DNA from: Mesodorylaimus sp. YZB2_4
Taxonomy: Eukaryota; Nematoda; Enoplea; Dorylaimida; Dorylaimidae
NCBI GenBank assembly: GCA_030248295.1
Contig: JASANH010000142.1
Coordinates: forward strand, 62,001 to 126,000
Direction of reading: 5' to 3'
DNA: 64,000 nucleotides
Position numbers and translations under genes: made by a program. Under the pieces are notes generated by a model, which searched no databases, had not been told where the DNA came from, and saw only the letters and a list, made by a program, of their open reading frames with translations. Below, piece by piece: positions 1 through 56,719 of this stretch (positions are counted from its first letter, which is position 1; each line of letters opens with the position of its first letter).

Positions 1-49
1 CCTCAGCTGATCCCCATGCCACCTTGATCTAACACTGGCTCGCTTTCAG

Positions 50-3000
50 GTTGGCAAGTGGCTGCTGATAATAACTTGGCAGGCCATATGTACCCGGACC
101 AAAGCCTTTACCCAGCCAACTCTGGGCCCGAATTGTGCCGTCGTATAAACAAAACCTTGCAACGATGCGATCAAATCGAACAATGCGATGGTGGCCTCAG
201 GCGCGATTGGTTCGTGCCCATAGTGGCTGATGCTGAGGCTGGTTTTGGTGGCCCGTTGAACTGCTTCGAAATCATGAAAGCCTACATCGAGGCTGGTGCT
301 GCAGGTATGGACTGGTGCGGAAACCTAACGGTAAGGGATTGGGGCACTTCCATGATGTGGATGTGGTTGTGCTGAATAGATTATGATTTTCACAGTCAGT
401 GCAGAGCCCCCATCCCACATAGGCCCTTATAATATGCCTCACCACCTCCTGACTGTGAGGCTAGGTGCCCCCCCCCCCTCCAGCAGAGATGACACATGTC
501 ATGAAGAGTGTAGAGACACCATGAGAATCGCAATCAGAGCAGTAATATCTGATTTCTAGAAGTCAAAGAGTGGTGAAACATCAACTTGACGGGTCAAGTC
601 CTAAGATGCCGACTCTCAGCACAGGTTATAATTTTAGGAGTCCATTTCGAAGATCAGTTAGCGGCCGAGAAGAAATGCGGTCATCTGGGAGGCAAGGTGC
701 TAATTCCGACTCAAGCTCACGAGAGGAACCTGAACGCTGCTCGACTGGCGGCGGACACTTGTGGCGTTCCAACAATTTTGATCAGCCGCACCGACGCCGA
801 ATCGGCCAAGTTGATCACTAGCGATATCGATCCGCGTGACCACGACTTTATCGATTTTGAACGCGGTCGTACGGCCGAAGGGTTCTTCCGCCTGAAACCA
901 GGCACAGGATTAGCGCACTGTATAAATCGTGGTTTATCAGCGGCTCCTTTCGCCGATCTGCTTTGGTGGGAGACATCTACACCCGATTTGAAATTAGCTA
1001 AAGAGTTCGCTGAGGCTATCAGAAAGGAATATCCGGATAAAATGATGGCCTATAACTGCTCGCCTAGTAAGTCCTAGTTTAGTTTGCCTCGAATAGTTCC
1101 ACTCCTGGGGCCAATTCGTTTTTTTTCCCCCCCCCCCCCCCCCCGCCAAATAGTTTCCCTGATACTCCGGGGCAGGGGGTCCATCAGGGTGTAGACACTC
1201 TGCTAAGGGCTTTTTATTGTAGAAGAGAAGAAGAGAAGAAGGGAAAAAGCCCTGCCCTGCTCATTGTATGAATCTCATGTGCTGCGAGGGTGAACGCTCT
1301 GATTTTGAGAAAAAATTACAGAGAATTTCGATGCCAGAATGTGTTGTGACGTTAAATTTTAATTCCTCCGCCTGGAATCCATTTGAATGGTCTCCTCAGT
1401 TGACATTAGTTGAGTATTCGGAGTGATCGATGCATTCGCTCTATCTTCAGGTTTCAACTGGGAGGCTAATTTGACAAAGGATCAGATTGCCGAATTCCAA
1501 AAAGAGATTGGTGCTATGGGTTACAAGTTCCAGTTCGTCACGCTGGCTGGTTTCCACGCCATCAACTACAGTATGTTTCAACTTGCCTTGGATTACAAAG
1601 ATCGTGGCATGGCCGCCTACAGTCGTATGCAACAGGCCGAATTCGCACTGGCTCGTTATGGATACACGGCCATCAATCACCAACACGAAGTAGGCACTGG
1701 ATTCTTCGATCAAGTAGCTTTGGCAGCCGGCGGTGGCGCTGCATCGACCACAGCTTTGGACGAGTCGACCGAAGCCGCCCAGTTCCGACAAAAAGTCAAG
1801 GAGAACGTTGCCAAGGGGAAACCAGCCGAAGCTCAACAAGAACAGCAGCAACCACTCTCATACGCTAATCGACCAATCGGCACTAGCTACGATCCGTTTC
1901 ACGTTCGACCAGCCCGTTCATATCACACGTCGACTCGGCACCAGGCCAAGGTCGGCAATGAGAAATCGATCGATGGCCTGAGATTGACAATGGCGAAAAA
2001 AGAAGGCGATGAGACAATTTTGAGCAACGAGGCGTTGGAATTTTTGCTTTCATTACATCGCAAGTTCGAACCGAGACGCCAAGCACTATTGGACGCGCGC
2101 AAGGATCGTCAACACAGCATCGATCGAGGTCAAGACGCGCCTCATTTTTTCCAAGAAACGGCCAAGGTTAGCGAGTGATTGAGAGAGGGAGAAATCGATG
2201 TGATTGTGGTTTGGGGTCAGCAACTTTGATTGAGTTGAATTTAAGTGGGCCTATAAATATCGGGACGGGTTTTGAGTGTATTGATAACAGTATTGCGGCA
2301 GTGATAAGTTATCACTAAACGGGGCGGGTTGGGGTTATCTCTAACTTGGGACTACATCTTATCTTTTCAAATTTAGTAATATTTTTTGATTTTCTTTGGT
2401 TTCATTTTTTGCTGGCCAATTAATTTCAGAATCTTCATTTTGTAATGTCGTCATGCGTGATTTCTAAAAGTAAAATTTTTTTGAATTGGGATATGTTGGC
2501 CAAGCAAGAAATGGCGCCAAATTTGAATTATGTGTTTTTGATCCTACACATTTTCAGATTCGTGAAGCCGAATGGAGTGTTGGTCAAATACCTGCTGACT
2601 TGCAAGATCGTCGTGTCGAGATCACGGGACCAGTCGATCGAAAAATGGTTATCAATGCTTTGAATTCGGGCGCTCGTACTTTTATGGCCGATTTCGAGGA
2701 TAGTAATACACCAACTTGGAGAAATCAAATCGATGGTCAACGTAATCTGATGGATGCCGTCCGTCGTACTATTGTCTATGTCGATCCTCAAACTCATCGC
2801 GAGTACAAACTGGCTGACAAGACGGCCGTCTTGATCGTCCGTCCACGCGGATGGCATTTGCCCGAACGTCACCTGTTGATATCAGATGGTGATCAGGAGA
2901 CTCCGATTTCTGGATCATTGTTCGATTTTGGCTTATATTTTTTCCATAACGCTCGGGAATTGATGGAAAGGAAGACTGGACCGTATTTCTATCTGCCTAA

Positions 3001-4149
3001 AATGCAAAGTCACAAAGAAGCGGCATTGTGGAACGATGTATTCTTATTTGCCCAGGAACGATTAGGCATTCCAAAAGGCACGATCAAGGCGACCGTTCTC
3101 ATCGAACATATTTTGGCCACGTTCGAAGCTGACGAAATTCTGCACGCTCTGAAAGATCATATAGTTGGTTTGAATTGTGGTCGATGGGATTATATCTTCA
3201 GTTATATCAAAACCTTCCAAGCTCATTCCAAGTATTTACTACCTGATCGACAACTGATCACTATGAATGTTCCGTTTATGAGCCAGTACAGCAAGTTCAT
3301 CATTCGCGTTTGTCATAGGTAAGTATTAGAACTAGTTGCTGAAGATTTCAACGGGTGAGGAATAGTTAGGGAATAAGAGGGCGTGGCTTAGGTTGGTTGT
3401 AACCAATCGAAAGGATCGGCAAGGATCTGTTGACTACAAGGAGGGGCGAAATGAGTAGATTTATGAACAGCAATGTTTGTTGTAGACGCGGTGCTCACGC
3501 CATGGGAGGAATGGCAGCGTTCATTCCAGTCAAAAACGACCCGAAAATCAACGAAGTTGCATTGGACGCAGTGCGCAAAGACAAGGAGCGCGAAGCTACT
3601 GATGGCCACGATGGCACTTGGGTGGCTCATCCCGGCCTGGTGCAGTTGGCAACTGACGTCTTCGATAAATTCATGCCAACTCCGAATCAAGTTGATAAAG
3701 TCGTTGATCCAAAATCACCATTTCCATCCGCCAATGACCTGATCCAGGTTCCGGATGGTTCGAGGACGGAAGCCGGTTTGCGCCGCAACGTCAGCGTTAC
3801 TCTGGGCTACTTGGAGTCGTGGTTGCGTGGTCAGGGATGCGTTCCATTGTTCAATTTGATGGAAGACGCGGCCACAGCTGAGATCAGTCGCGCCCAACTG
3901 TGGCAATGGCTGCATCATCACGGGAAGCTAGAAGATGGCAGACTGGTCAACGAGGCCATGCTGAAACGAGTCATCAATGAGGAAACAGCCAAATGGGCTA
4001 AATCGATGACCACTAGGAAGGCTGATCACGATCCATCTGACACATTGCGCGAGGCGGCCGATCTGCTCCGTCAAATGCTTGATACGAAGGAAATGCCCGA
4101 ATTCCTTACCCTGCCAGCCTACGATTTGATCATTGAAAAGGGATTATGA
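50..4149 (+). CDS. Bifunctional glyoxylate-cycle enzyme: isocitrate lyase + malate synthase (5' partial)
   Basis: Catalyses both glyoxylate-shunt steps: isocitrate to succinate plus glyoxylate, then glyoxylate plus acetyl-CoA to malate. Five exons are visible (50-304, 638-1066, 1451-2166, 2558-3318, 3486-4149); all phases join and give about 941 residues. The lyase half begins at GWQVAAD, carries the DAEAGFGG stretch and the catalytic KKCGH signature, and ends about [17 protein letters not shown] Gln/Ser-rich linker follows. The synthase half shows [23 protein letters not shown] and [13 protein letters not shown]. This lyase-synthase order is the one known from nematode fusions such as C. elegans icl-1. 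By analogy roughly the first 100 lyase residues lie upstream of base 1. The C-terminus (EKGL) is not a canonical SKL-type peroxisomal signal. Intron 2 contains a C-homopolymer near 1128-1144. Identification is secure; exact junctions are inferred. Confidence 0.95.
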
Positions 4150-17430: not shown

Positions 17431-19750
17431 AGCGATCCCACGTACATGGAGCCAGCCTACCACGAGGGCCTCATAGATTCTCAAATCGGGGAGCGGCCAA
17501 ACGGAGTTCTTACGGACTGGACTGTAGGGACTCCTTGGGTGTAGGCGGTGGTGCTCGCAGAGCAGTTCAAACGCTCACCAGACCTCGATCTCGTTCTCGG
17601 TTCCGTGCTTGGCCCGATTTTCAATTATGGGAGAGGCAGACAGGTTCCCTGACCAGTGCGGATAAGTTCATCCACGCCTGTGTAGTTTTACCAATGCCCT
17701 GACAAGTTTGACTCAAATTGATACACCGACTGCTGATGAGTGCTAGCCTGAAGAAGCGAAGATGCACCCTAAAAAAACCTAGCTGCATAAAAAATCCAAT
17801 CAGGGAGCATCAGACATGGTCTGTCAGTTAAGAGTCAGATAGAGCAGGGACGTGGGGACGTGCTACCTGCTACTTGTACTGCGCCAACTGTGACGTGCCT
17901 GTGACATTTTTGACCCGACCCTAATTTATGCTTCTTTTCGGGTTCATGACTCTTACATAGTGAGATTAAGGCGGTAGCTTTGAGAAAAACTCTATTTAAG
18001 ACAAACTCTTTCATCACAGAACACTGCAAATGATAGAAATAATCCAAAAATAGTTTATTGTATTTGACAATACGCACAGCACCAGCGCATAAGTGTGGAT
18101 TCTGCTGTGAAATGCGACCCTCGGTTTCAATGGTCATGAACCAGGGCGACGGTCGGGAGTTTCAAGAAGTCGACAAAGGAAGCTGACAGGGATCTGAAAT
18201 TTAGAGCACCTAGGAGGACACATACAATAGCACTGACGGATAGAATCGGACTTATTATCAGTCAGGAGTACGGCCATCTTGTGGTTGTGACCTGCCGAGA
18301 AGATAGGCTTCGACAACAAGAGCGAAAAGGGCAGAACACAAGAACATGGAATTCGCTCTCTAGACAGGATCTAAACAAATTCAACAGCGGACAAGAATGT
18401 CTATTGCGCAGTCAAGTCATGTCATGCCTTTTTTTCATACATAAACACGTTGCACACTTACGTCAGAAACGTACGAAACAACCACACGCGTTTTAGAACA
18501 ATCAGTCCATCACAGGCGTTCTATGACTTCAGACTGTGCCATAACACGGAAAATGGTTGCCCTTGATTCATGTCCCACTCACGTGAAATATTCCATTGTG
18601 CTCCCTTTCCTGCACAGGCACACTTTTCGATCCCCCTCTCACTGCGCATGCCATAGGTCTGCTTGAAACTCCGCAAAAATGCATAGCAGCATCCATAGGA
18701 AACCATTTTGCGCACACCCTTGCAAGACAAGAATCGTTGCTCGAATCAATAAAGCTACTCGTATCTCATTTTTTGCTGCAGCCTGGTTCCTATCATATTC
18801 TTCCTCGGTTTTCTCTCCCTTCGCGCGCACATGTTATTCACGAAGGGGTGATGTTGATGGAATTGGAGCTGAGCCAACTTGCGTGCCATTGCCATGTTTG
18901 TTACTGGCAACCGGGCGGCGAACCGGCTTGGCTTTACCGCCAGCTCTATGACAAACGGTATGTTCCGCTGCTTAGAGATTTGCAGTGATGGCGAGGCGGC
19001 CAGGAGAGCAGGTGATGGTGGGGAATGTTTCTTCGGCGGTTTGTTATGTTATTGCGCACCGTACGTGCAGAAGGACGTCAGCGACAGCGCCCGTGTTTAG
19101 AAGTCTAAAGTTCGAAATCGTTGGCGAATCGCAAAAAATCGTGGCCAAGTGGATTTTTCATTAGTAGAGATCGAGTAGTGTTCTGCTTAGCTAGCTACCA
19201 TGGCATTGGGTTGGGGTGCAAGTTTCAGTGGGGAGATTTTTTGAACGAAAGCGTATTCCAGTCTGTTGTCCTAGCTGTTCTATATTTGGTATGTATCCGC
19301 CTCCTGCGACGGTTCACCATCTGTCTCCCTCAGAAATGCATTGCGACCTCTTGTTTTACGTTTCTACCAGCACGTGGTTTTCTATTGCGCGCATCGCAGT
19401 CACGCTATTTCTAGAACTTGGGCGTTGTACCTAATACCTGCTTGATTCTGGTCAAAATGGAAATGCATTTCTTCTATTTTTTGCACTCATTCAGTGCAAA
19501 TTACAAAACCCGTGATGCAAATTGAACGTAAATCGATGTTTGTCCGTATGCGCGCAAGGAGGGCTGATGGGTAAACATGACAAGCTCGTTTACTCGTTGC
19601 TGCCTCCATCTGCAATGATTTGAAGAAGCGGATGTTTGGCCTACTTTCGCGAAGACTACGGCCGTTACCGACTCTAACTTTATTCTACTGGCGCAAAAGA
19701 GGTTTCCCTTGTCTTCTATTTCAGGGATTTCGCATCTGCGCGAATCAAGC

Positions 19751-22425
19751 ATGGACGAGTTCGACGAGATTAATGAAATGGATTTTGTGAGGGGACGTTC
19801 ATATACTTGGGCTCATCATCAAGAGCGTGGATCTACTATTTTGAATAAACGAGGATCTTTCTCAAACGGTGACTATGAACAGGACATGCGCGCTAGAGGT
19901 CAAAACGACGAATCTCCCTTGTCCGACGATGCCGCGGTCGGCCACCTGCAACAAGTGCAGGTTGGAAGTGGGAAGAAGAAAAGAAAATCTTATACGGAAA
20001 TTATTGCAACTGCAATTCTGAGTTCGCCGGAAAAAAGGCTAACTTTAGCCGAAATTTATGACTGGTGAGAGTTTCCTGGTTGAGTTGATTGGGCTGGGTG
20101 TTCTAAGTTGCCTTTTTGCAGGATGGCTTCAAATGTGGAAGAATATAAAAATCAGCGTTATGTGCCAAGTTCCTCAAGTTGGAAGGCAAGTTTGCAAGAA
20201 TATTCTGCTGAATAAGTTGAAACGGGCATACTGCAAGGTCCTCCTTTTTGTCCTCTCAGAACGCGGTGCGCCATAATTTATCGGTGCAGTCGTGTTTTAA
20301 ACGAGTCAAACGGCACGGAGTCGAGAAGCCATCGTGGTGGACAGTGGACGTTCGTCAAGCGGCTAAGCGACGATTGTCTCTGCCACTGATCGCTGAGAAT
20401 AACAACGATCCTGCCGCTGACAATGAGATCAAGGCTCCTCACAAACGCTCGCATGCGACAGCTGTATCTGAAGATGCGGTCATGGTGAATGGAACGGAGC
20501 TGTCGAACGATGGGTTCATGCCAAACGGCGATGCCATCGGGGAGTCGAGTGGAGAGCACGCTTATTCGAGAAATGTCCAGCCATTAAATGAAGGTACAGA
20601 AGGCATGCTTGTTTGGTGTAGTTTCAGAGTGTTTGTGTTGACTGTCATCGAGTCATTCTCCTGATCACTGATCTCCCTCCTAGGCACGCAACAGGGTCTC
20701 GGCAACTCCTAATTTAAAGCTAGGTGACGTAATGTATGAAATATAGGAGTGGAAGGCGCTTCGTGCATAGTGGCTCTAACGGCAAATGGACGATATGAGA
20801 GGAATTTTCCATGACGTCCTCTCGATTTTCTAGCGAAGGCCCGTGATAAGATGATGCTATTCATAAGTTGCTGTCACGTGCACGAAATGTAGGCATTGCT
20901 CACATTGCCCATGGTAAAATAATAAGCATCGGTCACATGCTATTGTCATGTTTAATCAACTTGCCGCGTTTTTCAGGACACACTGCTAAGATGAAATTGA
21001 ATTCAGCGATTAACTGGGATGAGGAAGGGCACTCTGTTGCCACTTTTAACGTGGACAGCGACGGTTCATCGATTCCGCTATCGGCTGAACAGTTGGCGGA
21101 GGCCTGGTTAAGTCGATACAAAACTTCTGGAGCGGGTTTAGTTATTGGTAAGGACGGGTCAACGGCTCAGACACTACGAGTGAAAACGGCGCAGGGCGTC
21201 GAGCAAAATGTCCGGTTCGCGGGGCCGATACGTATAAATGTGGTCGTGAGATGCGAGAAGGCTGCCCAAACTGACGATTTGGATTTTGATAACGGAATGA
21301 CGAAATTGCAAAATGGTGAAGCCGTGGGTACTTCCTATCCAAGGTGTCATGAGTTTGAGGTAAGTGCATGCTTGGACCGACTCTGAGCTGTGGTGCGTAG
21401 TGGCGCAGTATTGAGTGAATAGTATGGGTTCCACACCATACTTTACTCGCAGGTACCCAAGCACTCGAAGGGTGTCTGCAACTGAGGATTGCTCGCTGCA
21501 AATGGGACCCAGGTGGGTGAGAGCTCCGACCAGGGAGTTCTGTTTTCTGCGATGGAGATTTAAAAAAGTCTTGAACCCTTTGAATATCTCAGGATGTTTC
21601 AAGTAGAGAGACCGACTTCAATATAAAGACTCGTCTGACAATCGATCCTTTGCAAGAGCTGGTAGCTGGTAACGTCACCTTCAAGGTGATGTTCCAGCCA
21701 TTGACTAGGTCCAGAGGCCGAGAGCCAGCCAAGGGCTGCCCTGGGTTTTTGATAGGATGCGAAACCTCTCCAGTGCTAAGTTGCGGAACTAGTCGAGTAA
21801 TGAAAACCTGAGAAGGGAATCTGTCATATGTACACACGCACAGCGGGCGGAATAGAAAAGTTACTAGAACCAAAAAGGGTCTATCGTGTGATGAGCAAGA
21901 ACAATTTGGTGGATGCCGTGGCAATGCTTTAGCTTGCCAACCGAACTAGTGGTCCAGGCACTCGATTACTCCTATATGACTTGAAAGGTTTTAGTCAGTC
22001 TGCAGACTAGTCGTCTCTGTCTGTAAGGGGAGTACCAGTTCAAGAGCTAGGAAGAGTAGGCACATACTGAACGAGTAATGGTGTGGTTACCACTTTAGTG
22101 GGCTTCTTGAAAGGCCTGTCTTCCTTGACCTCTGTGGTGGTTTGGGTAACCTGAAACAAGTGGTAGCTTTCCAGCGCCTGCTACTGTGCGTTCACCCTTC
22201 ATATCCCTAACGTTTTAGGCTCTTAGCCGTGGCACCAGCAATGATCAAACGATGATCAACTTCGGAAACGATTGTGACATTTCAAAAATTTTGCACGGTG
22301 ATGTAAAAATGTCATCGGCCATGAATGTATTATCGCCATCTGCGGTTTTAGAAGAGGATGCATTGACTGAGTGCTGGAATGAGATCAGTGGAGATGATTT
22401 ATTGACTCTCACTAACATGTCCTAA
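19751..22425 (+). CDS. FOXO-type forkhead transcription factor, paralogue 1
   Basis: Five exons (19751-20064, 20122-20185, 20260-20593, 20977-21359, 22219-22425) sum to 1302 nt and encode 433 residues. The N-terminus carries RGRSYTW (residues 14-20), matching the first Akt site of FOXO proteins (RPRSCTW in human). The forkhead domain spans about residues 80-165 (SYTEIIATAILSSPEKR, the variable wing region, WKNAVRHNLS, KPSWWTVD) and has the FOXO-like WKN..RHNLS. It ends at KRRLSLP, equivalent to the second Akt site. A block near TLRVKTA...VVVRCEKAAQTD is shared with the second paralogue. FOXO proteins act in the nucleus downstream of insulin/PI3K/Akt in starvation and stress responses. Intron 2 uses a GC donor. 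An acceptor (TATTTCAG) just before the Met suggests an untranslated 5' exon. Confidence 0.88.
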
Positions 22426-28787: not shown

Positions 28788-31221
28788 TTAGGTTTCAGAC
28801 ATATCCATCATGGCCGAAGTAGTAAACACTGGCCGCGTGCTGGCATTTGGTGCAGACAAATCGTCAACACCATCCGCGTATGGCGTGTGCTCCAAAGACG
28901 GATTCCACGACCACCCCCACATGGGTCTGCTGGATGCTTCGAGAGTCGCGCCTAACACCTCGTCAATATTGCAATCTAGATCCCCCTCGATTTGAAGACC
29001 AGCCAAATCGTCAGGTAAATCTGACGCTGATGCCGATTCGTGGTTCTGAAAAAATATAGATTGGAAAAACGACATTGAATTTGGACGGATGCTCCGTAAT
29101 CCTCGCTTGTACTCTCGGGCTATATGATTTCACGGCGGTCTGACCCTGGGGATATAAGTGGGGGGGGGGGGGGGGGCTACAGGGATTCGAACGGGCCGGG
29201 CGTTCGCTTGTATGTCCTGTACAAAAGTACCTAATATTAGGCTTTCTACTGGTATATACTGTGGGACCTAATAATAGGCATTTTTGTTAGCTATGATGAT
29301 GAAAAACAGTGAAAAAAAAACGAAAACATGGGTGCCCAAAATCGATCTTATGACGTACGTTCTACACGGGGGGTGTACCGTCAGTGAACAAGCGCGAGGA
29401 GTTCCGTCAAGCTCGAGAAAAAACTACGAAAAAGAAGAATGTAAGAAATCACAAACATTGCTGCGTGATCACTTGATCGATCTTGGACGAGAGATGTTTG
29501 AACACACAACTAATTAGTTGCGCTTGTTGGCGCAGAACTTACATGCTGCTGATACATTCCGCACAGTTGATGATCCCACCTCGCCACACTCTTATGCGCG
29601 TTGCGATGGTCGTTGGCTTCATCGGTTTGTGTCATTCCATCGCACTTGACCACGGTGCGCATGGGGAGCAGACCATTGAAGTTGATATCCTCCACATTGC
29701 CCCACGCTGTCTTGACTCGCAACGTTTGGCTGGGTGTCCCCACGCCGCTACCGCCTTCATCGGTTCGATTGGCCATGTTCAACGATTCAGCGATGTTGGG
29801 CCAAGTGTTAAAGTGGTTCAAGGACCCGCTTAACTGACCACCATTCGTACTTGGACTGGACTGAGAACAGGAGCTACTGGCGGACGAGGTCCAGCTGTAC
29901 ATGCCAGGCGAAGAGTCGGAGGTAGTATTTTGACCGCAGTCGCTGGATTGGAAGCTGACTTCCAACTGGGCATGCCGATATGGGTGAACAGAAGTTGGTG
30001 ATTCTTTACAGACCAACGTGACTGAGGGGACCAAATTAGTTGGACTATGGATCAGATGTTTCGATTCCCTTTGCGATGCGTCGACTGCGCAAGGTTTCAA
30101 GAACACAGTGTCGTCCACGCTGCTTTCGTTGCCATTTAGTTCTGCAACAGAGAAGGCCTCATCAAATTGCTTATCAATAAGAGCTAATAAACTGACTTGT
30201 CATGCTTCCAAATGGTGATTCACCCGAGTGTGACAAGTTGAATCCAGTATTTCCCACGCTGAACATAGTCATGTCGCTGCTATGAGTCGGTATGGCTGGA
30301 CGAATCGGAGTGTAATGGGTGCGTTGTGTGTTCGCGTTTGAAAACTGGAAATTCGTTGTTGACATTATATCATTGGTCGACGCAACCCTGTAAGTAATCT
30401 TGTGCGCTCCAGTGGTTTCTTTTGGGACGTTTGCTTGCGGACACGGGACGGGCCCGCTGTACGTATTTCGACGCGGTGGCAAGAACGGTTCGTTGTCATC
30501 AAAGTTCCCATTCGCACTGTCCACGTTGACGGTGGGACGAAGGACCAATCTTCGTTTGGCCACTTCAGCCATGTCTACTGTCCACCACGATGGTTTCTCC
30601 ATGCCGTGACGTTTAACGCGTTTGAAGCAAGTTTGTACGGAAAGGTTGTGACGAACAGCATTCTGAAAGGAACGAAGAGGTGCGGGGGCTAAATGATAAT
30701 CATCCATTTGGATCCCATCTTGTAATTAGTGTGCTTTGATCGCGTGACAGACTAATTAGAGCCCGGAAATTCCCGCCTCTCTACCACGCTGTACACATCA
30801 CAAGACCTACCTTCCATCCCAGAGAACTGTGCATGTATCTCTGATCTTTGAACGATGGCACATTCAAGACAAACCAATCGTAAATTTCGGCCAAAGTTTT
30901 TCGTTTTTCTGGCGAACTGAGAATGGCGCTAGCGATGAGTTCCGTGTATGAGTGACGGCGCTTTTTTATTTGCGCTTGTCCAGCCGTCCCATTGCTCATT
31001 GACTTGGACCGACTTCGTTGCGCATCCATGACGAAATTAGCCTCTTGATTGCTTGTTGCATCGTCCGTTTCGTAAATGCAACTCAAACCAGTCGGTCGAG
31101 ATGGACCCATCGACTGTTTACGAGTATTTTCCAGAAATGCCGGCCGCTGCATGTGAGACCACGAGTTTGAACGGAACAAAGGGCGATCTTGCTCATCATC
31201 TTCAACGTCGACCGGATCCAT
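28788..31221 (-). CDS. FOXO-type forkhead transcription factor, paralogue 2
   Basis: Four exons (31221-30811, 30662-30197, 30141-29543, 29045-28788) total 1734 nt and give 577 residues. The N-terminus has RPLFRSNSW (residues 13-21), a first Akt-site-like motif. The forkhead domain is at about 92-176 (HSYTELIASAILSSPEKR, FKDQRYMHSSLGWKNAVRH, KPSWWTVD). The second Akt site is degenerate: KRRLVL, where paralogue 1 has KRRLSL. The shared TLRVKTA block and an MTQTDE motif follow. The last exon includes LDCNIDEVLG, resembling the acidic FOXO transactivation helix, which is less clear in paralogue 1. It is longer and more typical than paralogue 1, with conserved splice positions inside the forkhead. 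It presumably regulates stress and starvation genes in the nucleus. Confidence 0.9.
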
Positions 31222-34200
31222 CTTAGCGCTCTAAAATTAGAACCTCTCTATGTTATATGCATAAAAATCGTAAAAAAGAAAACTTCGCGAAGCAGAGATA
31301 CTGTAACTAATAGGAATTTCTCGTTTCGGGACTTCCTCGTATAGAACACCCCAACTTCCCCTCAGACTATCTCACAGTCCACCCTGCCCTCAAGATTATT
31401 CGATGAAACAACATCGACGAAAAACAAGCCCGTCAGACGCAGAGTGTCGCTTTTCTCTTATTAGGGATGGTTGCCGTGATCACGAATAGACAGATCTACT
31501 CGGAAAACAGAAGCCGCATGATGTCAGATGTTTGTCCTGGCAACAGATCACTTTTTGCCACTTGCAGCTCAATGTCACGAGCAATATCTTCTGGGAGTTC
31601 AGCGGACACACAATGACACCGGTGAGGATGGATAGAGCAATTTTATCAGGCACCCCTAGTACAGAACCTCCCAGCCCTGGCCTCGTTGAGAATACGTCGG
31701 CATGGATACTTTTCACGGTCCACATTTTGCGCAAAAACAGTCATTACTTGAAACCCCGTGCTGAGCAGCTAACGTAGGAGACGACCAGACAGACGGCCAG
31801 ACACACGGGTTTTGAAACTTTGAAAAGATACATTCCAGACAATTACAAATTCTACTTTCTTCCTTATTAGGAAAATAGAACTCCTATCTCTTAAAACTAG
31901 ACAAAGAGCTTTGACGAAAACATACTTCGAGCAAGACAACTATTCCCTAAGAATAGGCCCCAGGGAGTCACTAAGTCAACAGCAAGCGGGAACACCCGCG
32001 CTATCAGGGTCAACATAAAATGAAATCTTGGCAATGGCTAGCTACAAAAAAAACTTGTTTTGCCGAGTTGTGTACGTATGAGTGAACGTAAAATAAGTAT
32101 ATTCTTCGACTACTTTTAGTTTGATGTCATCAATACGCGCAGGAAACAATAAATATATGGCACGTCAGTCCTCTCATTACGCATCGCTCTTTGCCCTTTT
32201 GTGCAAGTCTCCATCAACATTTGGGAAAAAATGTTTCCAAAAGATTAAAATACACTTAACTAAAATCACGTGATATTCACGTTTCTACGAAATCTTTGTG
32301 GGGCGAAAGAACTCTTGGCGCTCACCTGGCTAGCCCAGTCACTGATGTATTTTTTTGTCTCAAAAGTTACCATGCGCACGTTCACCCAACGAGCTCATCT
32401 TGGGTAAACGATGATGGGGAGTCACAAGTGCTTGGTGCAAATTTCGGATTCGAAGGAGGAGAAAATAGAAGCAAGTAAGAACTGCGAAAATAAAACAAGA
32501 TCTATCAAAATATGGGCACCAAGCTGAAAAACAGGACCCGATGATTTTGAACCCAGAAGACGCAAAATGAAAAACAGTTGCAGCTGGAATAAGAGTTGTA
32601 AGAAGCTTATTTTAGTGGCGCATACTGCCAAAAGTGATCCTCAATATTCCATATGCATAACTAGTTACATTGTGCGCTCTAACGAACTAGAGCACGAATG
32701 CCGCTGGGCACAAGGATCCTTTTTTTACGTAGAAAAGTAAAAAAGAAAAGCAGTGGCCAGCAGCCATCGAAAGTCTAAGCAAGAATTGATGGTCAACATT
32801 ACGTAAGGACCTAATTAGCTGTTTCGCTTACCTCCTGAGGGCTAAGAATTCCAGAGCAGGAACTAAATACTTGCTAGAGCTCGTCAATATAATTTGCCCA
32901 CAGCGAATTCTTTTATGGCCTCTTTCCATAAAATATCGACCCGCAGCTGTTTATCGAACGAACCGCCGATCTATACTTGCTCGTTCAATAAAAGTGCTTT
33001 CTTAGTGCGTTGCTGCTCTCTGCTGAAACACGTTTCGGTTGTGGAGGCTTCAGATGTGCCGCACAGTTTTCGAATACGCAACCAGTTGCGTCAAAGGGAG
33101 CGAAACTAGTACGTAGCTACCTGAACGGACAAATATAATTCCGAACCAGGGACCCAGATGGTTTACTGCCGGCACGTTTTCACGTAACGATCATGCCGAA
33201 AGTATAAAAAGATAGGACTAGTCTTGAGTGAAAGAATAAATACTCGAATGAGCATTCTTGAATGTTTTTGTTTTTCCTATTTCTACAGGGGAGCAAGAGC
33301 GCTCTCGCGAAAGTGCACGTAACGTTGGCGATCCGGGCGGCGTAGGTAACTGAAGAATACGCTCTAACTAGGCGAGCTGAGCGAAACTTGGCAACCATCT
33401 GACATCAACAAGCTTGTTTTTCCAAAGACTCGCTGTGCGCAGCGCGTGAGAGCGGAAACATGTTTCTGCCCTTCGAGTCGATCTATTGGCGCAGTCGGGC
33501 GAAAACAGCTGCCTGACGTCGATTGCGTGAAAGCAGCATGCGCCAGAGAGCTACCCTTACATACATGGGCACTCGTCAGGGAGTATCTGGCAATTGGCGG
33601 ATCGATTCACTTTTTTCAACAGTCGACCAAGCGTCAAGAGGGGCCGTCGTTTTTGTCACTAATAATACACCATATTCGATATTGGACGAACGTGGGTGGG
33701 CTGAAGCAGGGATAGCAAGGAAGTTGTTTCCCAATTTTGCGCATGTTGGTACGGGAGCACTCACCGTCCATCCACGCAGAATTATCCTGGGGACTCGCGT
33801 GCTTCTGCGCGATGTACAGTAGATTGCACTGTGCAAAATAATTCGGTTGAAGAGTTGGCTCGCTAAAGTGTTTATTCGCGTGTAAATTTCCAAGAATATA
33901 GTTCCGTTATCTCGCATTTGTTATTCGAAGGAAGAAGTAAAAGATGCCGTCGCTCTTGTTTTCACGTACAGTGTTCAACTTTCTGCTTTATGTCATCCCT
34001 TAGAGGCCAGATCAGTATGCATAAACAGCATAAAATGATAAGCTGATTAGCTGCCGGGGAAGATTCGTGGCAAACATCTATTGAGGTCGGATCTAGGAAT
34101 AATCGGTGACTCCAAACAGAGCCACGGCTTATGATTATGGTATGTTATTTTGTTCCTGGTCAAAACACCACGTAATTACAAAAGCAAAATAACATTTTGG

Positions 34201-37012: not shown

Positions 37013-37020
37013 TATAAAAG
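37013..37020 (+). promoter_or_regulatory. TATA box of the poly-cysteine precursor gene
   Basis: TATAAAAG stands 95 nt upstream of the start codon. A start site about 30 nt downstream (CTGCAGTTTC region, near 37050) would leave a 5' UTR of about 60 nt. Confidence 0.65.
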
Positions 37021-37107: not shown

Positions 37108-37588
37108 ATGCAATCGGCTTTCGTCATTGTCTTGTGCTCGGCTTTGGTCTTCTTGGTAGCGGCTTTACCAGCTGAGAAACGTGGTTTCGAAGAAGAACAA
37201 CAAGCTCAAATACTCGCTCCTCAAGTCTATGGTAAAGACCAGTGACGCTTCATCGAAGCTTTGACTGTATGTAATAAACCTTTCAGATGCGATCGACAAC
37301 AGTGCCGCTTTGCAAGCCAACTTCCCATCCATCTCGGCTCGCTCGAGTGAAGAACGTGTGAAACGTTGTGGCGGTGGATGCGGCGGTGGAGATGGTGGAC
37401 ACTGGGGCAAGCGTGAGATCGAAGAACGTCAGAAACGCTGCGGAGGCGGTGGTGGTATGGGCTGGGGACGCGTTGCTCGCTCGATCCAGGAACAAGGCAC
37501 CTCCGATGCTGCTGCTGCCAACGTCGACAAGCGCATGGCCCGCATGAAACGCGGTTGCTGTTGCTGCTGCAAGTGCTGCTGCTGCTGT

Positions 37589-37623
<35 letters not shown>

Positions 37624-37876
37624 CTGCAAGTGTTGCTGCTGCTGCGGCAAGCGTGCCTTGCGTGAAGCTACCTTAAATGGTCAACAAGGAAACTCCAACT
37701 ACGAAAGCAGCATCATTTTGGGCAACCTCCGCGACACCAACACCCGCCAAAAGCGATGCTGGTCCAGCCGCAGCCAACGTGATGCCAGCGACTTCTTGGG
37801 ACATTTCGAGAAGAAAATGGCCAAGCGATGCATGGGTGGCGGTATGGGCGGTGGCATGGGAGGCGGATGCCACTAA
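37108..37876 (+). CDS. Secreted prohormone-like precursor releasing Cys/Gly-rich peptides, one nearly all cysteine
   Basis: Exon 1 (37108-37231) and exon 2 (37287-37876) flank a 55-nt intron and encode 237 residues. A signal peptide (MQSAFVIVLCSALVFLVAA) is followed by Lys-Arg sites at 24-25, 67-68, 83-84, 91-92, 123-124, 129-130, 163-164, 197-198 and 221-222. Predicted products: residues 69-81 (Cys/Gly-rich, ending HW before GKR), 93-101 (ending GMGW before GR), 131-161, 199 onward (CWSSR) and 223-237 (CMGGG repeats ending CH). The 131-161 peptide is G, C5, K, C18, K, C5, then GKR: 28 Cys in 31 residues with mirror symmetry and a predicted amide. Cys codons mix TGC and TGT. The layout is that of a neuropeptide or antimicrobial-peptide precursor. 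The Cys block could instead bind metal or cross-link. No family is recognised. Confidence 0.85.
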
Positions 37877-52387: not shown

Positions 52388-54164
52388 ATGCATCTAGTGC
52401 TCCTATTCCAGGCCTTGATCGCATTTTGTGTTTGCCTCACTTTCGTATCTGCATTTCCATATTGCACAAATGCGACTGGCGATGAGGGTCGCTGCTGTTA
52501 TTCTAAGGAAGAAGAAAAAGGTATCGGTTTGGTTATCACCATTCTGCCTTCACACACATAAGATTCATCTGTTTTAGATACTGCTCTGGCTGATGCCCAG
52601 GCTCATGAGGCTAGTTGTTTATATGTGACCTTGATTCGACGATTCTGTAATCAATATTGCCCATATTTGCTTAGAACACAGTCTTTTGATAGACAAATGA
52701 CCGCAGTAATGCACAGCCCACCAAACAATGGCCAGCCGACTGTAGAAGTAACCCATTACTGGTTAAAACGGCTGGCCATAGTGAGTAAAGAAAAAATGCG
52801 CCACACACCTGGTGCCACCTATAGGCTTCTCCTTTTCAGGATGAGTCTGAGCAAGAAATGATCTCGCGTGCGACCATTCGTCTGGTAAATTCTAGTTTGT
52901 GAAATTTGTGAACTAGATAGTTTCTGTTTTTATAGAGATGGACAGATACACGACTCAAATGGGGAGATGAGCTAAGTTCTAGAAAGTATCTTAAACTGGA
53001 CAGCATAAATGATTTTTGGCATCCGTTTGTTCGCCGTGCGTATTTATCGCCAGGGTAAATAAGTTTTTTCAGCTACCTTCTGCAAATTTGAAAAGCAGTA
53101 AGCCTTTTGTTCAGGTCCCCTGATCGTGAGTATATGCATGAAAATGGCGGATTGCTGGATCAAAATGGAACGGTCACGTATGCAATAAGTTTCTCAGAAA
53201 TCGAATCATGTCCATTCGATTATACAGACTACCCTTTCGACGAACACAAGTGCTGCATCGACTTTAAAGTCTCATCGAAGGTGGCCGTAACTTACAAGAA
53301 CTTGGTCGGCGAAAATAAGTACCAGCTGGAAACAAAGCAATTAAATAGCCGCCTTTGGAAAGACGTCACCCCTTTCTTTGATATCAAGAAGCCAAAAGAA
53401 ACGTCCGATAATGAGTTCGCAGTGATTTTCAGTGTCTGCGCCAAATTTAGACGCGGTTCTGCGACTGCCGTCACTGAAATTGTCCTTCCATTGGTCGTAA
53501 CCATTCTGCTTTCCATCATATTGCCTGTATTCTGCTCATGGAAATACCAAATCACGAGCAAAGTGTTTTGTCTCTTTCTCCAGTTTGCTAACAGCTTTGT
53601 TTTGACGCTGGACACAGAATATTTGCAACTTGGGTCAACAACGCCGAAGCTGTGTAAGTAAAAAATATTTTAATACATTTTTCCAATCAGCAGCAACTTT
53701 TGAAAATATCACCGAACGAGGCAGGATGACAGGCCAAGCATGCTGACTGTGTCATTTTAGTGGTCTTGCACGAGCTGGTCATTTGGACATCAACGCTGGG
53801 CCTGATCAGTACACTGGTGCTGCAAGCTCTTTCCAAACGTACTTTCTTTCTGCCCCCACCATCGTTGCTCGTCAGAATAACTACACTGGTCAACTTGTAC
53901 TTATGGTGGTCAATGTTCGATGTACGAGACGATGATGGCGAGGATGAGTTCGATCAAGCCACTATTCCGATTGCTGCTGCAGTTACTACCAGCAATTTAG
54001 AAACGGAAACTGGAGAAAATGTGAACGCTGTGGCGTTCCGTGGTAAAGAGCCCATAAAAGAGCGTCGCGATTCTTGGTGGAGTGTTTGGATGGCTTTGGC
54101 TCGTCTTCTACATGTGGTGTTTGCACTTGTATATGTGATTGGGGCCCTAGCTTTGCTTTCGTAA
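52388..54164 (+). CDS. Cys-loop ligand-gated ion channel subunit, tandem copy 1
   Basis: Six exons (52388-52520, 52578-52780, 52840-52884, 52936-53039, 53115-53653, 53761-54164) total 1428 nt, 475 residues. Signal peptide MHLVLLFQALIAFCVCLTFVSA. An N-terminal Cys cluster (YC...GRCCY) precedes a short ligand-binding domain with WTDTRLKW and FWHPF. The Cys-loop is C194-x13-C208, with DYPFDEHKCC in place of FPFD.Q.C and an extra adjacent Cys. TM1-TM2 read EIVLPLVVTILLSIILPVF and KVFCLFLQFANSFVLTL; TM3 follows exon 6 start; TM4 is the last 20 residues. The TM1-TM2 linker (CSWKYQ) lacks the GEK found in cation channels, and no Pro-Ala-Arg anion motif is present. No loop-C Cys pair is seen. It is probably a nicotinic-like receptor subunit; ligand and ion are unknown. 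Confidence 0.87.
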
Positions 54165-54774
54165 TCGAATCATATCGGTCAACTTGGACTACTTGGGGAA
54201 CTGCATGTTGAGTACATTGCTTATCCGAGTATAAACTTGCTCGTTCTGTGACGCTTTGGAGTTCGGAATCAGAGCCGATGCATCGTGATGCTGCAGACTG
54301 TTTGAATAACAGTGTGTAACGTGTATGCACAGTTAGAATTTACACACCAGTTACCTTAGAGGTACTACCTGGATGAGTTATTCTCCCTTAAATATGCTTG
54401 AATAAAAAAGTATAGCCTGCGGCCTTATGAAAAATAGACTGCATGCGGAGCTTGATGTTGGCACAGTGCAAGAAAGCAAAATTTGCCACAGTACGCCAGT
54501 ACGGATATAGCTGCAATATCAATCAGCATAATTAGATTAGTCAACTAGAAAATCACGAAGCAAATTTCTATAAAATTGTCAGATTCGATTCCGTTGATAA
54601 AAATTTTATTCAATTCGTTAATGACTCCAAAAGCGATGCAATTTACAAGCAAATATCGCTCATTTTACACTGATTCATGGCGGTCTTTAAGTGACGTCTG
54701 AAATGTGCAGCCGGCTTTTCAGTGTTGCAAGAAACTACCAAACCAGCGACGTCTGCCAAGCTGTACCTGCAGAC
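54165..54774. other. Spacer between the tandem channel genes
   Basis: AT-rich 610-bp spacer holding the 3' UTR of copy 1 and the promoter region of copy 2. AATAAAA near 54402 could be the copy 1 polyadenylation signal. Nothing else recognised. Confidence 0.4.
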
Positions 54775-56719
54775 ATGCCTGCCACGATCATTTTCGCAGC
54801 GTTGCTTTTCCTGCAGTCACTTCGTACTTCAGAGTGCTCCTATTGCCTTGATGCAAGCGATGGATATTGCTGTTATGACACGGAAGAAATGAAAAGTGAG
54901 TTCTGTCGATCATTGTTTATGCGCTCCTTTCTTTATGATTTGCATACTGATTCAGACGAAACTTGGTCAATCATGAAAGAAAACAGTGTTAGCTGCATTT
55001 TCGTAAATATTGTTCGTAATGCCTGGAAAAAGGCAGGCGGGCTGCCAAGCGCTTCGTTTTCGCAACAAAAGACAACACTCTTACAGTCGCCAAGGTGGTT
55101 TGAAGACACCCCTGTCGACGTTATAGCGAGTGACTTTTTGATTGATTACATGAGCATGGTAGCTTTTTCTAAATGAACACGTTACTTTTGAAGTTTTGAA
55201 AGACGTTTCAGGGTGAGTCCACCCAGAAGCTGACGATTGGTGGATATCTATATCTGGTAAGTAGCTAGTGCAAAGCTTAGTGCAAAGATACCGTAAAGGA
55301 TCAAAATACCATTTCATTTCTTACGCTCCTGAAAGACCAAAGGTTGCTTCTCATTCCGCACAGTCAAGCCACATCACACCCCCCCCCCCCCATTTCAGCT
55401 TGTCATAAAAATTCAAAGTTTGGATTTAAAAAGTCGTCATATCGTGCTTTACTATTCAAGAGCAAACGCTTTCCATGTGAGCTTTTTAGAACTGGACAGA
55501 TGAAAGGTTAATGTTTACCGAACGCGATTTTGAGTACTATAGTGCATCTGACATATGGCATCCTCGTATTTTTCAACAGTATGTGACGTAAGTAGGGTGA
55601 ACGATACTATCTGTTTTCTTAGGGAATGTACACGCGGCCTATGCGGTAACGTGGAGGGCGCTTATATTCTTAAAGAAAAGAGGTTATAGTGAAGGTTCAA
55701 ATCGCCGAAAAATATTTGAATTTTTAGGGGTAGTCTCAATCCCATAAAAGCTACCATCACTGGTAAAACTGGAAATGTCCAACTTGAAATATCTGTTTCT
55801 TTGTCTGAAATCTGCTCTTTTGATTACACGTACTATCCATTCGACGAGCACGAATGTTGCATAGATTTGTATTCTTCGAGACGCGTGAATTTCAAGATAT
55901 CATCCGCTTTACAAGACATAGAAGTGAACAAAAAGGGAAGCAGTCGACTTTGGAAAAACGTAGTTGGCTCATTGCGAGGTGGCGGTCAATATCAAGAGCG
56001 TGATTATAGCAAGCCTTTAAACCCTCTATTCTCAATTTGTGCCAATTTCGAACGAGGTTCTGCTACAGCTATGACCGAAATCGTCCTGCCATTTTCAGTG
56101 ACAATCCTACTTTCTGTCGTCTTACCCATATTCTGCCCGTGGAAACTCCAAATCCTAGCAAAAGCCTTTTGCCTGTTTCTTCAATTCTCTTGCAGTTTTG
56201 TGCTAACTTTGGACACTGAACATCTGCAACTTGGTTCAACGACACCGCGCTTACGTAAGTGCCAAAAAATGTTTACTTTTTTTGTACAGTTTCATCAAAA
56301 GGGCTTTTTCAGTGAGATTACATGAACTAGTCATCTGGACAACGCTAGTCAGCCTTATCAGCACAGTCATCTTTTGGAACTTATCAAACCGTAATTTTAA
56401 ACAGCCCCCTCCATCAGGTCTGATCAAAGGGACCACACTTTCGAATTCGCTTTTATGGTGGTCATCGTTAGATGATTACAAAAATAGTGATGCCACCGTG
56501 CTCGATCAACCTGGTTCTGAGAATGGGCGCGTGAAAAGCTCAATTATTGATACCGAAAATGGCGATGAGAGAACCAATAGCAGTGGCGCAGCAGGAATGG
56601 CTCAAAACATGAAGCAAACGCGAGATCTGTGGAAAAACGTTTGGATCGGTATGAATCGCTTTTTTCAAGTGATTTTCATGTACGTTTATGTTATTGGATC
56701 CTTGGCGTTGCTTTTGTAG
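54775..56719 (+). CDS. Cys-loop ligand-gated ion channel subunit, tandem copy 2
   Basis: Six exons (54775-54895, 54956-55158, 55212-55256, 55490-55587, 55728-56254, 56313-56719) total 1401 nt, 466 residues. Exons 2 and 3 have exactly the same lengths as in copy 1 (203 and 45 nt) and all phases match. Signal peptide MPATIIFAALLFLQSLRTSEC, then the same Cys cluster (YC...GYCCY). The Cys-loop is C185-x13-C199 with an adjacent Cys (YYPFDEHECC). TM1 is EIVLPFSVTILLSVVLPIF, the linker CPWKLQ again lacks GEK, and TM2 is KAFCLFLQFSCSFVLTL, followed by the shared DTEHLQLGSTTP. TM4 closes the protein. The binding domain has diverged far more than the pore, which suggests a different ligand or partner. 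Upstream in-frame Mets exist, but 54775 gives the signal peptide. Confidence 0.87.
55605..55690. repeat. Small palindromic unit, copy 2, in a channel-gene intron
   Basis: CTGTTTTCTTAGGGAATGTACACGCGG on one side and, inverted, ACTATAACCTCTTTTCTTTAAGAATAT on the other resemble the 41069-41147 unit. It sits in intron 4 of the second channel gene, between 55588 and 55727. Confidence 0.5.

Follow-up and report, generated by a model that had tools for sequence, protein, structure and literature searches.

The locus at positions 37108-37876 of the 64,000-nucleotide stretch of DNA that we analysed (the window) raises the question of whether a long run of cysteine codons within an apparently secreted precursor is maintained as cysteine, and of what a peptide consisting of little else might do. 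Translation of the window gives, on the forward strand, a precursor of 237 amino acids with no internal stop, encoded in two exons (Table 1). In most respects it agrees with the initial annotation: the N-terminus is hydrophobic, in keeping with the proposed signal peptide (hydropathy), nine Lys-Arg (KR) sites can be counted, and the block said to hold 28 Cys in 31 residues, with KR before it and GKR after it, is indeed read at 37553-37645, its cysteine codons being the irregular mix of TGC (20 codons) and TGT (8 codons) that had been described. The statement that most of the other released peptides start with Cys was too strong, since the pieces following KR in this gene begin with G, C, E, C, M, G, A, C and C, four of the nine being Cys-initial. 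What we say of the expression, splicing, cleavage, amidation, cysteine pairing, site and function of the precursor we infer from the DNA sequence.

Table 1. Predicted features of the window gene and its products (positions in the window)
Feature	Position	Strand	Basis or remark
TATA box TATAAAAG	37013-37020	+	95 nt upstream of ATG
Exon 1: signal peptide MQSAFVIVLCSALVFLVAALPA and start of spacer	37108-37231	+	ATG at 37108; hydropathy only
Predicted intron, 55 nt, phase 1, GT...AG	37232-37286	+	gene model
Exon 2: remaining peptides and stop codon (37874-37876)	37287-37876	+	gene model
Predicted peptide CGGGCGGGDGGHW, then GKR (amidation-type)	37367-37405	+	translation; product inferred
Predicted peptide CGGGGGMGW, then GR	37439-37465	+	translation; product inferred
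Poly-Cys peptide G-C5-K-C18-K-C5	37553-37645	+	translation
GKR, putative amidation and cleavage signal	37646-37654	+	Gly-basic-basic 3' of block in 28/28 loci
Piece starting with Cys, CWSSRSQRDASDFLGHFEKKMAKR	37757-37828	+	translation
C-terminal peptide CMGGGMGGGMGGGCH, Met/Gly repeat flanked by two Cys	37829-37873	+	translation, alignment

The label of neuropeptide-like precursor holds as far as the signal peptide and the dibasic and amidation-type sites are concerned, but the gene is not a lone one and belongs to a multigene family within a single genome. When the whole assembly (145,146,385 bases in 1067 contigs) was searched at the DNA level with the window gene, at least 63 matches were obtained among the best candidates scored. 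Thirty-two stretches were translated around these matches, of which 18 carry 25 relatives and 14 are (TGY)n tracts lacking the family flanks, giving 26 loci together with the window gene. Four protein queries taken from different members jointly recovered the same 26 loci and added a further two, L047 and L048. These searches establish that the window gene belongs to a family of 28 nematode loci predicted to encode related precursors (27 besides the window gene), distributed over 15 contigs, a copy number that is that of the assembly and in which haplotypic duplicates may be counted twice. Several copies are clustered or inverted and recent, with five on one contig (C247), an inverted pair of about 97% identity over 1.2 kb on another (C109) and three copies with near-identical proteins on a third (C46). 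The locus at C49:426655 is interrupted by one in-frame stop, which makes it a probable pseudogene. Separately from the family, the first 2.6 kb of two contigs (C706 and C163; L039 and L040) carry a nearly identical open frame with matching coordinates, which points to haplotypic duplication in this assembly.

Candidate signal exons were recognised by hydropathy only at 27 of the 28 loci, with none convincing for L024. A first exon was modelled at 25 loci, and in 22 of them the best model was a signal-peptide exon followed by a phase-1 intron, a count to be read with the knowledge that the score rewarded phase 1 and that many loci offered one possible model only; the first exons at C49:429749 and C2:1612803 are uncertain. 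The precursors contain between 6 and 10 KR sites each, and the usual order is one of Cys-starting Gly/Met-rich pieces alternating with spacers, then the Cys block, then more Cys-starting pieces. The last piece resembles CMGGGMGGGMGGGC in most members, the C46 copies and L024 being the exceptions, and in nine aligned sequences two Cys and one MGG of this C-terminal peptide are invariant. L024 itself (C2:1612803-1613759) consists of many pieces starting with RCCG and a single C31 run followed by GKK, and its first exon was not found.

The borders of the Cys-rich block are kept throughout: KR directly precedes it at all 28 loci, and a Gly-basic-basic signal follows it at all 28 (GKR in 23, GRKR in 3, GKK in 1 and GRR in 1). 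The block is made of Cys and Lys alone in 24 loci, reads CGGG-C31 in L024 and is mixed in L027, L047 and L048, where Cys is accompanied mainly by Gly, Ser or His; L027 has two blocks built of CC[SGH] units, and the other two are built of CG units. L047 and L048, located at 867.5 kb and 736.9 kb of contig C2, are relatives of the window family with a largely alternating Cys-Gly sequence between KR and GKR. Eight members share the arrangement C5-K-C24-K-C5, others having, for example, C5-K-C27, C6-K-C11-K-C5, or runs of C26 to C41 without Lys. The mirror symmetry remarked upon in the initial annotation thus holds for the window gene and these eight relatives, but is absent from others such as C5-K-C27. 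The comparison of relatives that had been proposed as a check, carried out here on paralogues, gives a similarly divided result, in that the KR and Gly-basic-basic sites (28 of 28) and the Cys-rich nature of the block are retained but the number of Cys and the layout of the Lys vary. Length differs even between close copies, C26 and C41 occurring within one inverted pair, and such changes probably arose by slippage.

The total number of Cys per block is even in 14 of the 17 distinct architectures (one-sided binomial probability 0.006), or in 14 of 18 (about 0.015) when the second block of L027, with 27 Cys, is added; in C6-K-C25-K-C5 and C5-K-C17-K-C5-K-C5, for instance, the sub-runs are odd but their sum is even. 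Even totals are what complete disulfide pairing would favour, and we regard this as no stronger than a hint, since the observation is post hoc, was made on related sequences and could equally result from six-base slippage. As to the amidation signals, the copper monooxygenase domain PF03712 is encoded in this genome, with 35 exon matches and a best E value of 6.7e-31. This domain is carried by peptide-amidating enzymes and also by relatives such as dopamine beta-hydroxylase; it is likely that an amidating enzyme is encoded among these matches, none of which was singled out from its PF03712 relatives.

Our reading of the family, for which we see about as much reason for acceptance as for doubt, is that of NLP-like secreted precursors whose poly-Cys amide acts extracellularly as disulfide-rich material. 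The precursor would enter the secretory pathway, be cut at its KR sites and then be amidated, which would release an amidated cysteine peptide with some 22-41 Cys together with GGW-amide-like and CxGGM...C peptides. In the least certain steps of this scheme the released peptides would form extracellular disulfide-rich material, probably in the cuticle, an epidermal barrier or a gland secretion, and the poly-Cys peptide would supply many disulfides, and possibly soft-metal sites, instead of serving as the ligand of a receptor. Signalling peptides would be expected to show amidation and several dibasic sites just as much as materials would, and free thiols, disulfides and metal thiolates are indistinguishable from sequence. 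Going one step further, and with confidence falling a little short of an even balance, we propose a natural polycysteine of an animal, probably of an enoplean nematode lineage: about 28 genes whose amidated, mostly homopolymeric peptides of that length (about 22-41 Cys) would serve outside the cell as a polymer of thiols or disulfides, in the role of a cross-linker, a sealant or a metal sink, mostly with an even number of Cys so that all of them can pair. A genetically encoded polythiol of this kind might offer a new material for cross-linking or metal binding and raises the matter of how the secretory pathway folds, stores and releases a poly-Cys peptide, and the family may provide a marker for a poorly studied nematode branch.

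A possible though unlikely alternative is that the peptides bind soft metals (Cu+, Zn, Cd), their Cys, Met and His residues acting as chelators, extracellularly or along the secretory route, in the manner of a metallothionein cut from a precursor. The Cys-starting pieces are rich in soft ligands, including poly-Cys, MGGMGGGMGM repeats and, in many members, DDHH, and Ts-PCHTP, which comes nearest among the named secreted poly-cysteine proteins of nematodes, is described as binding Fe, Ni and Zn (PMC2954182). On the other hand, the four members that were scanned had no Pfam metallothionein match, the mostly even number of Cys points to disulfides, and amidation would have no obvious use in metal binding. 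Secretory vesicles and the cell exterior are, moreover, oxidising environments.

Rather doubtful, in our estimation, is a role in defence or signalling of the NLP kind, in which the GGW-amides would be antimicrobial or transmitters and the poly-Cys would be toxic, membrane-active or a disulfide aggregation domain packing the precursor into granules. Trp-Gly-(Lys)-Arg endings after Gly-rich stretches are present in 18 of the 28 precursors (GGGWG, MGGWG, GGHWG and others, with no Tyr) and resemble YGGWG, the motif given for nematode NLPs (PMC6780910), and the clustered, recently duplicated copies recall the recent expansion of the antimicrobial nlp genes of C. elegans (PMC2453101). Long Cys homopolymers are also reported to lower the viability of mammalian COS-7 cells (PMC6821194), in line with toxicity. 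Against this role, the QWGYG sequence of the NLP-29 group is absent from the family and dibasic sites are present.

The maintenance of the tract as cysteine was addressed by a codon test on the eight C5-K-C24-K-C5 members, which align without gaps over 36 codons and include the probable pseudogene at C49:426655. Nineteen of the 36 third positions vary and none of the 72 first and second positions; summed over the 28 pairs, differences amount to 201 of 336 synonymous sites (pS 0.598) and 0 of 2688 non-synonymous sites (pN 0.000), the flanks in the same comparison giving pS 0.306 and pN 0.057. Because each TGY position offers one transition, silent at the third position only, the location of all 19 changes at third positions has a probability near 1e-9 under equal rates if sites are independent, an assumption that paralogues satisfy only in part. 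Over the 24 blocks of Cys and Lys, 816 Cys codons were counted, Lys being the one other residue encoded; the absence of further residues is partly by construction, these blocks having been picked by that pattern, with L024, L027, L047 and L048 as the exceptions. The initial annotation had argued for selection from the mixture of TGC and TGT codons; selection is supported by these family tests, but the mixture alone is no proof, as (TGY)n tracts outside the family share it.

It is very improbable that the tract is a CTG/TGY microsatellite lying by chance in a coding or non-coding stretch, an explanation that can draw on the period-3 array called by Tandem Repeats Finder at 37556-37645 (73% matches) and on the variable block length of close copies, and that is already refuted as the main one by the 19 third-position against 0 first- and second-position differences, by the KR and Gly-basic-basic borders at every locus and by the relatives built of CG or CCS units. 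Plain repeat slippage, which had been named as a result that would count against the original interpretation, was not borne out, and the plain trinucleotide repeat was rejected as a candidate, the variable sites (0, 0 and 19 at codon positions 1, 2 and 3) not being spread over the three positions. With three loci using CG or CCS units, it is Cys content, rather than one DNA repeat, that is kept.

Read from the opposite strand, the tract would be the polyglutamine of another gene. The Gln and Cys readings share their third codon positions, so that the codon test of the eight equal-length blocks cannot separate Cys from Gln. The antisense Gln frame is open across every block of the 26 loci examined (63-266 codons), and it is open for at least 150 codons in 11 of the 14 non-family (TGY)n loci of this genome. 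The flanks of 18 main members (C49:426655 left out) were compared in both directions: the sense flanks contain no stop, and their pN/pS is 0.234 on the upstream side of the block and 0.173 on the downstream side; the antisense flanks have stops in many members, affecting 92 and 327 of the codon pairs compared, and higher ratios of 0.329 and 0.227. The gap in pN/pS is modest, and in our judgement the stops and the conserved anatomy weigh more as evidence on the strand. An antisense polyglutamine reading of the family block is exceedingly improbable and was rejected on these stops and ratios, on further stops that the antisense frame meets within or bordering the blocks of L047 and L048 and the second L027 block, on the Gly codons of L047 and L048, which use all four third bases, a freedom silent for Gly but not in antisense, and on the location of the signal exons, TATA boxes, KR and Gly-basic-basic sites, all of them on the sense strand.

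Since variation is confined to third positions and the antisense Gln frame is broken by stops, we conclude that the block is selected as Cys; comparison among the paralogues establishes that its cysteines are kept by selection. That a family should keep 22-41 Cys per short block under strong purifying selection is surprising, because runs of Cys are among the least tolerated in proteomes (PMC5125637), and long Cys homopolymers are reported to lower cell viability, as mentioned above. Outside the family, L028, L030, L038 and other loci carry long (TGY)n tracts with an antisense Gln frame open over hundreds of codons, and there are apparently many polyglutamine genes in this genome.

In the upstream regions a TATAWA element was found no more than 200 nt upstream of the ATG at 26 of the 27 loci examined (L024 left out), as against 8.5% of 5000 random 200-mers from the window, a forkhead-like TRTTTRCW in 15 of 27 (4.4% of random 200-mers) and RCATGAY in 12 of 27 (4.1%), counts that are not independent, the loci being of common ancestry. 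The last two motifs occur mostly in the main subfamily and are absent from the window gene, which, though divergent, retains its TATA box.

The window also contains several other genes. At 28-4149 (+) isocitrate lyase exons are followed on the same strand by malate synthase, suggesting a fused glyoxylate-cycle enzyme of the isocitrate lyase/malate synthase type known from nematodes. Two similar forkhead-domain genes, FoxO-like by eye, lie in opposite orientation at 19619-20661 (+) and 28791-31230 (-) and are perhaps an inverted duplication. Adjacent diverged exons resembling Cys-loop ion channels, belonging by eye to at least two genes, are found at 53092-56719 (+), and the one piece tested gave a ligand-binding match just below the Pfam cut-off.

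The initial annotation had pointed to tardigrades as well as nematodes as places to look for relatives. The tardigrade suggestion falls, the nematode cuticle-collagen model PF01484 having 133 matches in this genome, all above the cut-off, and none in 14 control genomes. Since these matches are accompanied by a receptor piece in the window resembling Srsx chemoreceptors (just below the Pfam cut-off), we assign the genome to a nematode. The arthropod cuticle model PF00379 had no match in the genome, the control genomes being silent too, and a search with a CAHS1 sequence likewise gave no match in the genome, which is uninformative by itself. Fifteen cox1 matches were found that are apparently nuclear copies of mitochondrial DNA, and the stretch C73 251445-254668 (L041, L043) holds an inverted pair with cox1 and then nad4. 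A nuclear-looking cox1 copy reads in the invertebrate mitochondrial code, and several of its Ser positions conserved with mammalian cox1 are encoded by AGR; by eye, nad4 follows it and an apparent large rRNA precedes it on the opposite strand. Mitochondrial genes are commonly on both strands in Enoplea and on one strand in Chromadorea (PMC9115964). The 22-mer SL1 was absent from the genome at up to one mismatch. Genes on both mitochondrial strands and the missing SL1 together suggest that the genome is enoplean. Searches of a large protein database with the window precursor and one paralogue found no relative, and a neighbouring receptor used as a control was equally empty; because this control failed, the lineage being probably absent from the database, the empty searches say little about relatives elsewhere.

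The claim that no described family has this architecture was upheld in the searches made, which covered Pfam, the PDB and open-licence literature. Four members scanned against Pfam at E<=1 gave nothing above the curated cut-offs and no metallothionein, only weak matches below them (YxzE, GRP and Anophelin), a miss that carries little weight in low-complexity sequence. A PDB search with the Cys block gave no match, as expected for such sequence, and the strings CCCCCKCCCC, CCCCCGKR and KRGCCCCC were absent from the open-licence literature searched, supplements being outside its scope; among the poly-cysteine papers listed, 30 of 244, none showed such a natural peptide. The predicted poly-Cys product matches no family, solved structure or paper found, within the limits set by low-complexity sequence and open-licence literature.

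Metallothioneins and phytochelatins are likewise small thiol-rich peptides, but they are cytosolic, with Cys in CxC/CC patterns or as gamma-Glu-Cys, whereas the family is predicted to be secreted and homopolymeric, and the four members scanned lack a Pfam metallothionein match. The ultra-high-sulfur keratin-associated proteins combine CC-rich and Gly-rich partners in disulfide networks, and the CCS-type blocks of L027 look like them; these proteins are neither derived from a multi-peptide precursor nor pure Cys, and the four members scanned had no Pfam match above the curated cut-offs. Conotoxin-type precursors, consisting of a signal, a pro-region and KR-GCC...-G, share with the family the KR-GCC start and the Gly amidation signal, but have fixed Cys frameworks, of which there is none in the family, and usually give one mature peptide each.

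The YGGW-type NLPs and caenacins of C. elegans comprise nlp-24 to nlp-33 and cnc, and we know of no NLP with a Cys homopolymer. Like the predicted family precursors, theirs are short, secreted and Gly-rich and have grown recently in copy number; the W-G-basic endings of the family recall their YGGWG motif but lack its Tyr. NLP-29 and CNC-2 are described as lacking dibasic sites (PMC11993903), the NLP-29 group being defined by QWGYG after the signal peptide; the family translations have many dibasic sites (6-10 KR each) and, by eye, no QWGYG, which sets them apart from the NLP-29/cnc group. The analogy to NLP-29 is a loose one because NLP-29 lacks dibasic sites.

In Ts-PCHTP, whose name is similar, 36 Cys (8.8%) are spread over a protein whose large domains have their Cys spaced apart, the consensus including CKCCC but no run beyond a few Cys, and which ends in a His tail (PMC2954182); by-eye comparison with that consensus found neither this Cys spacing nor the His tail in the window gene. 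It nevertheless resembles the family in being a Cys-rich nematode protein that is secreted, as is predicted here for the precursors, and it has itself been found in the cuticle, as well as in other tissues.
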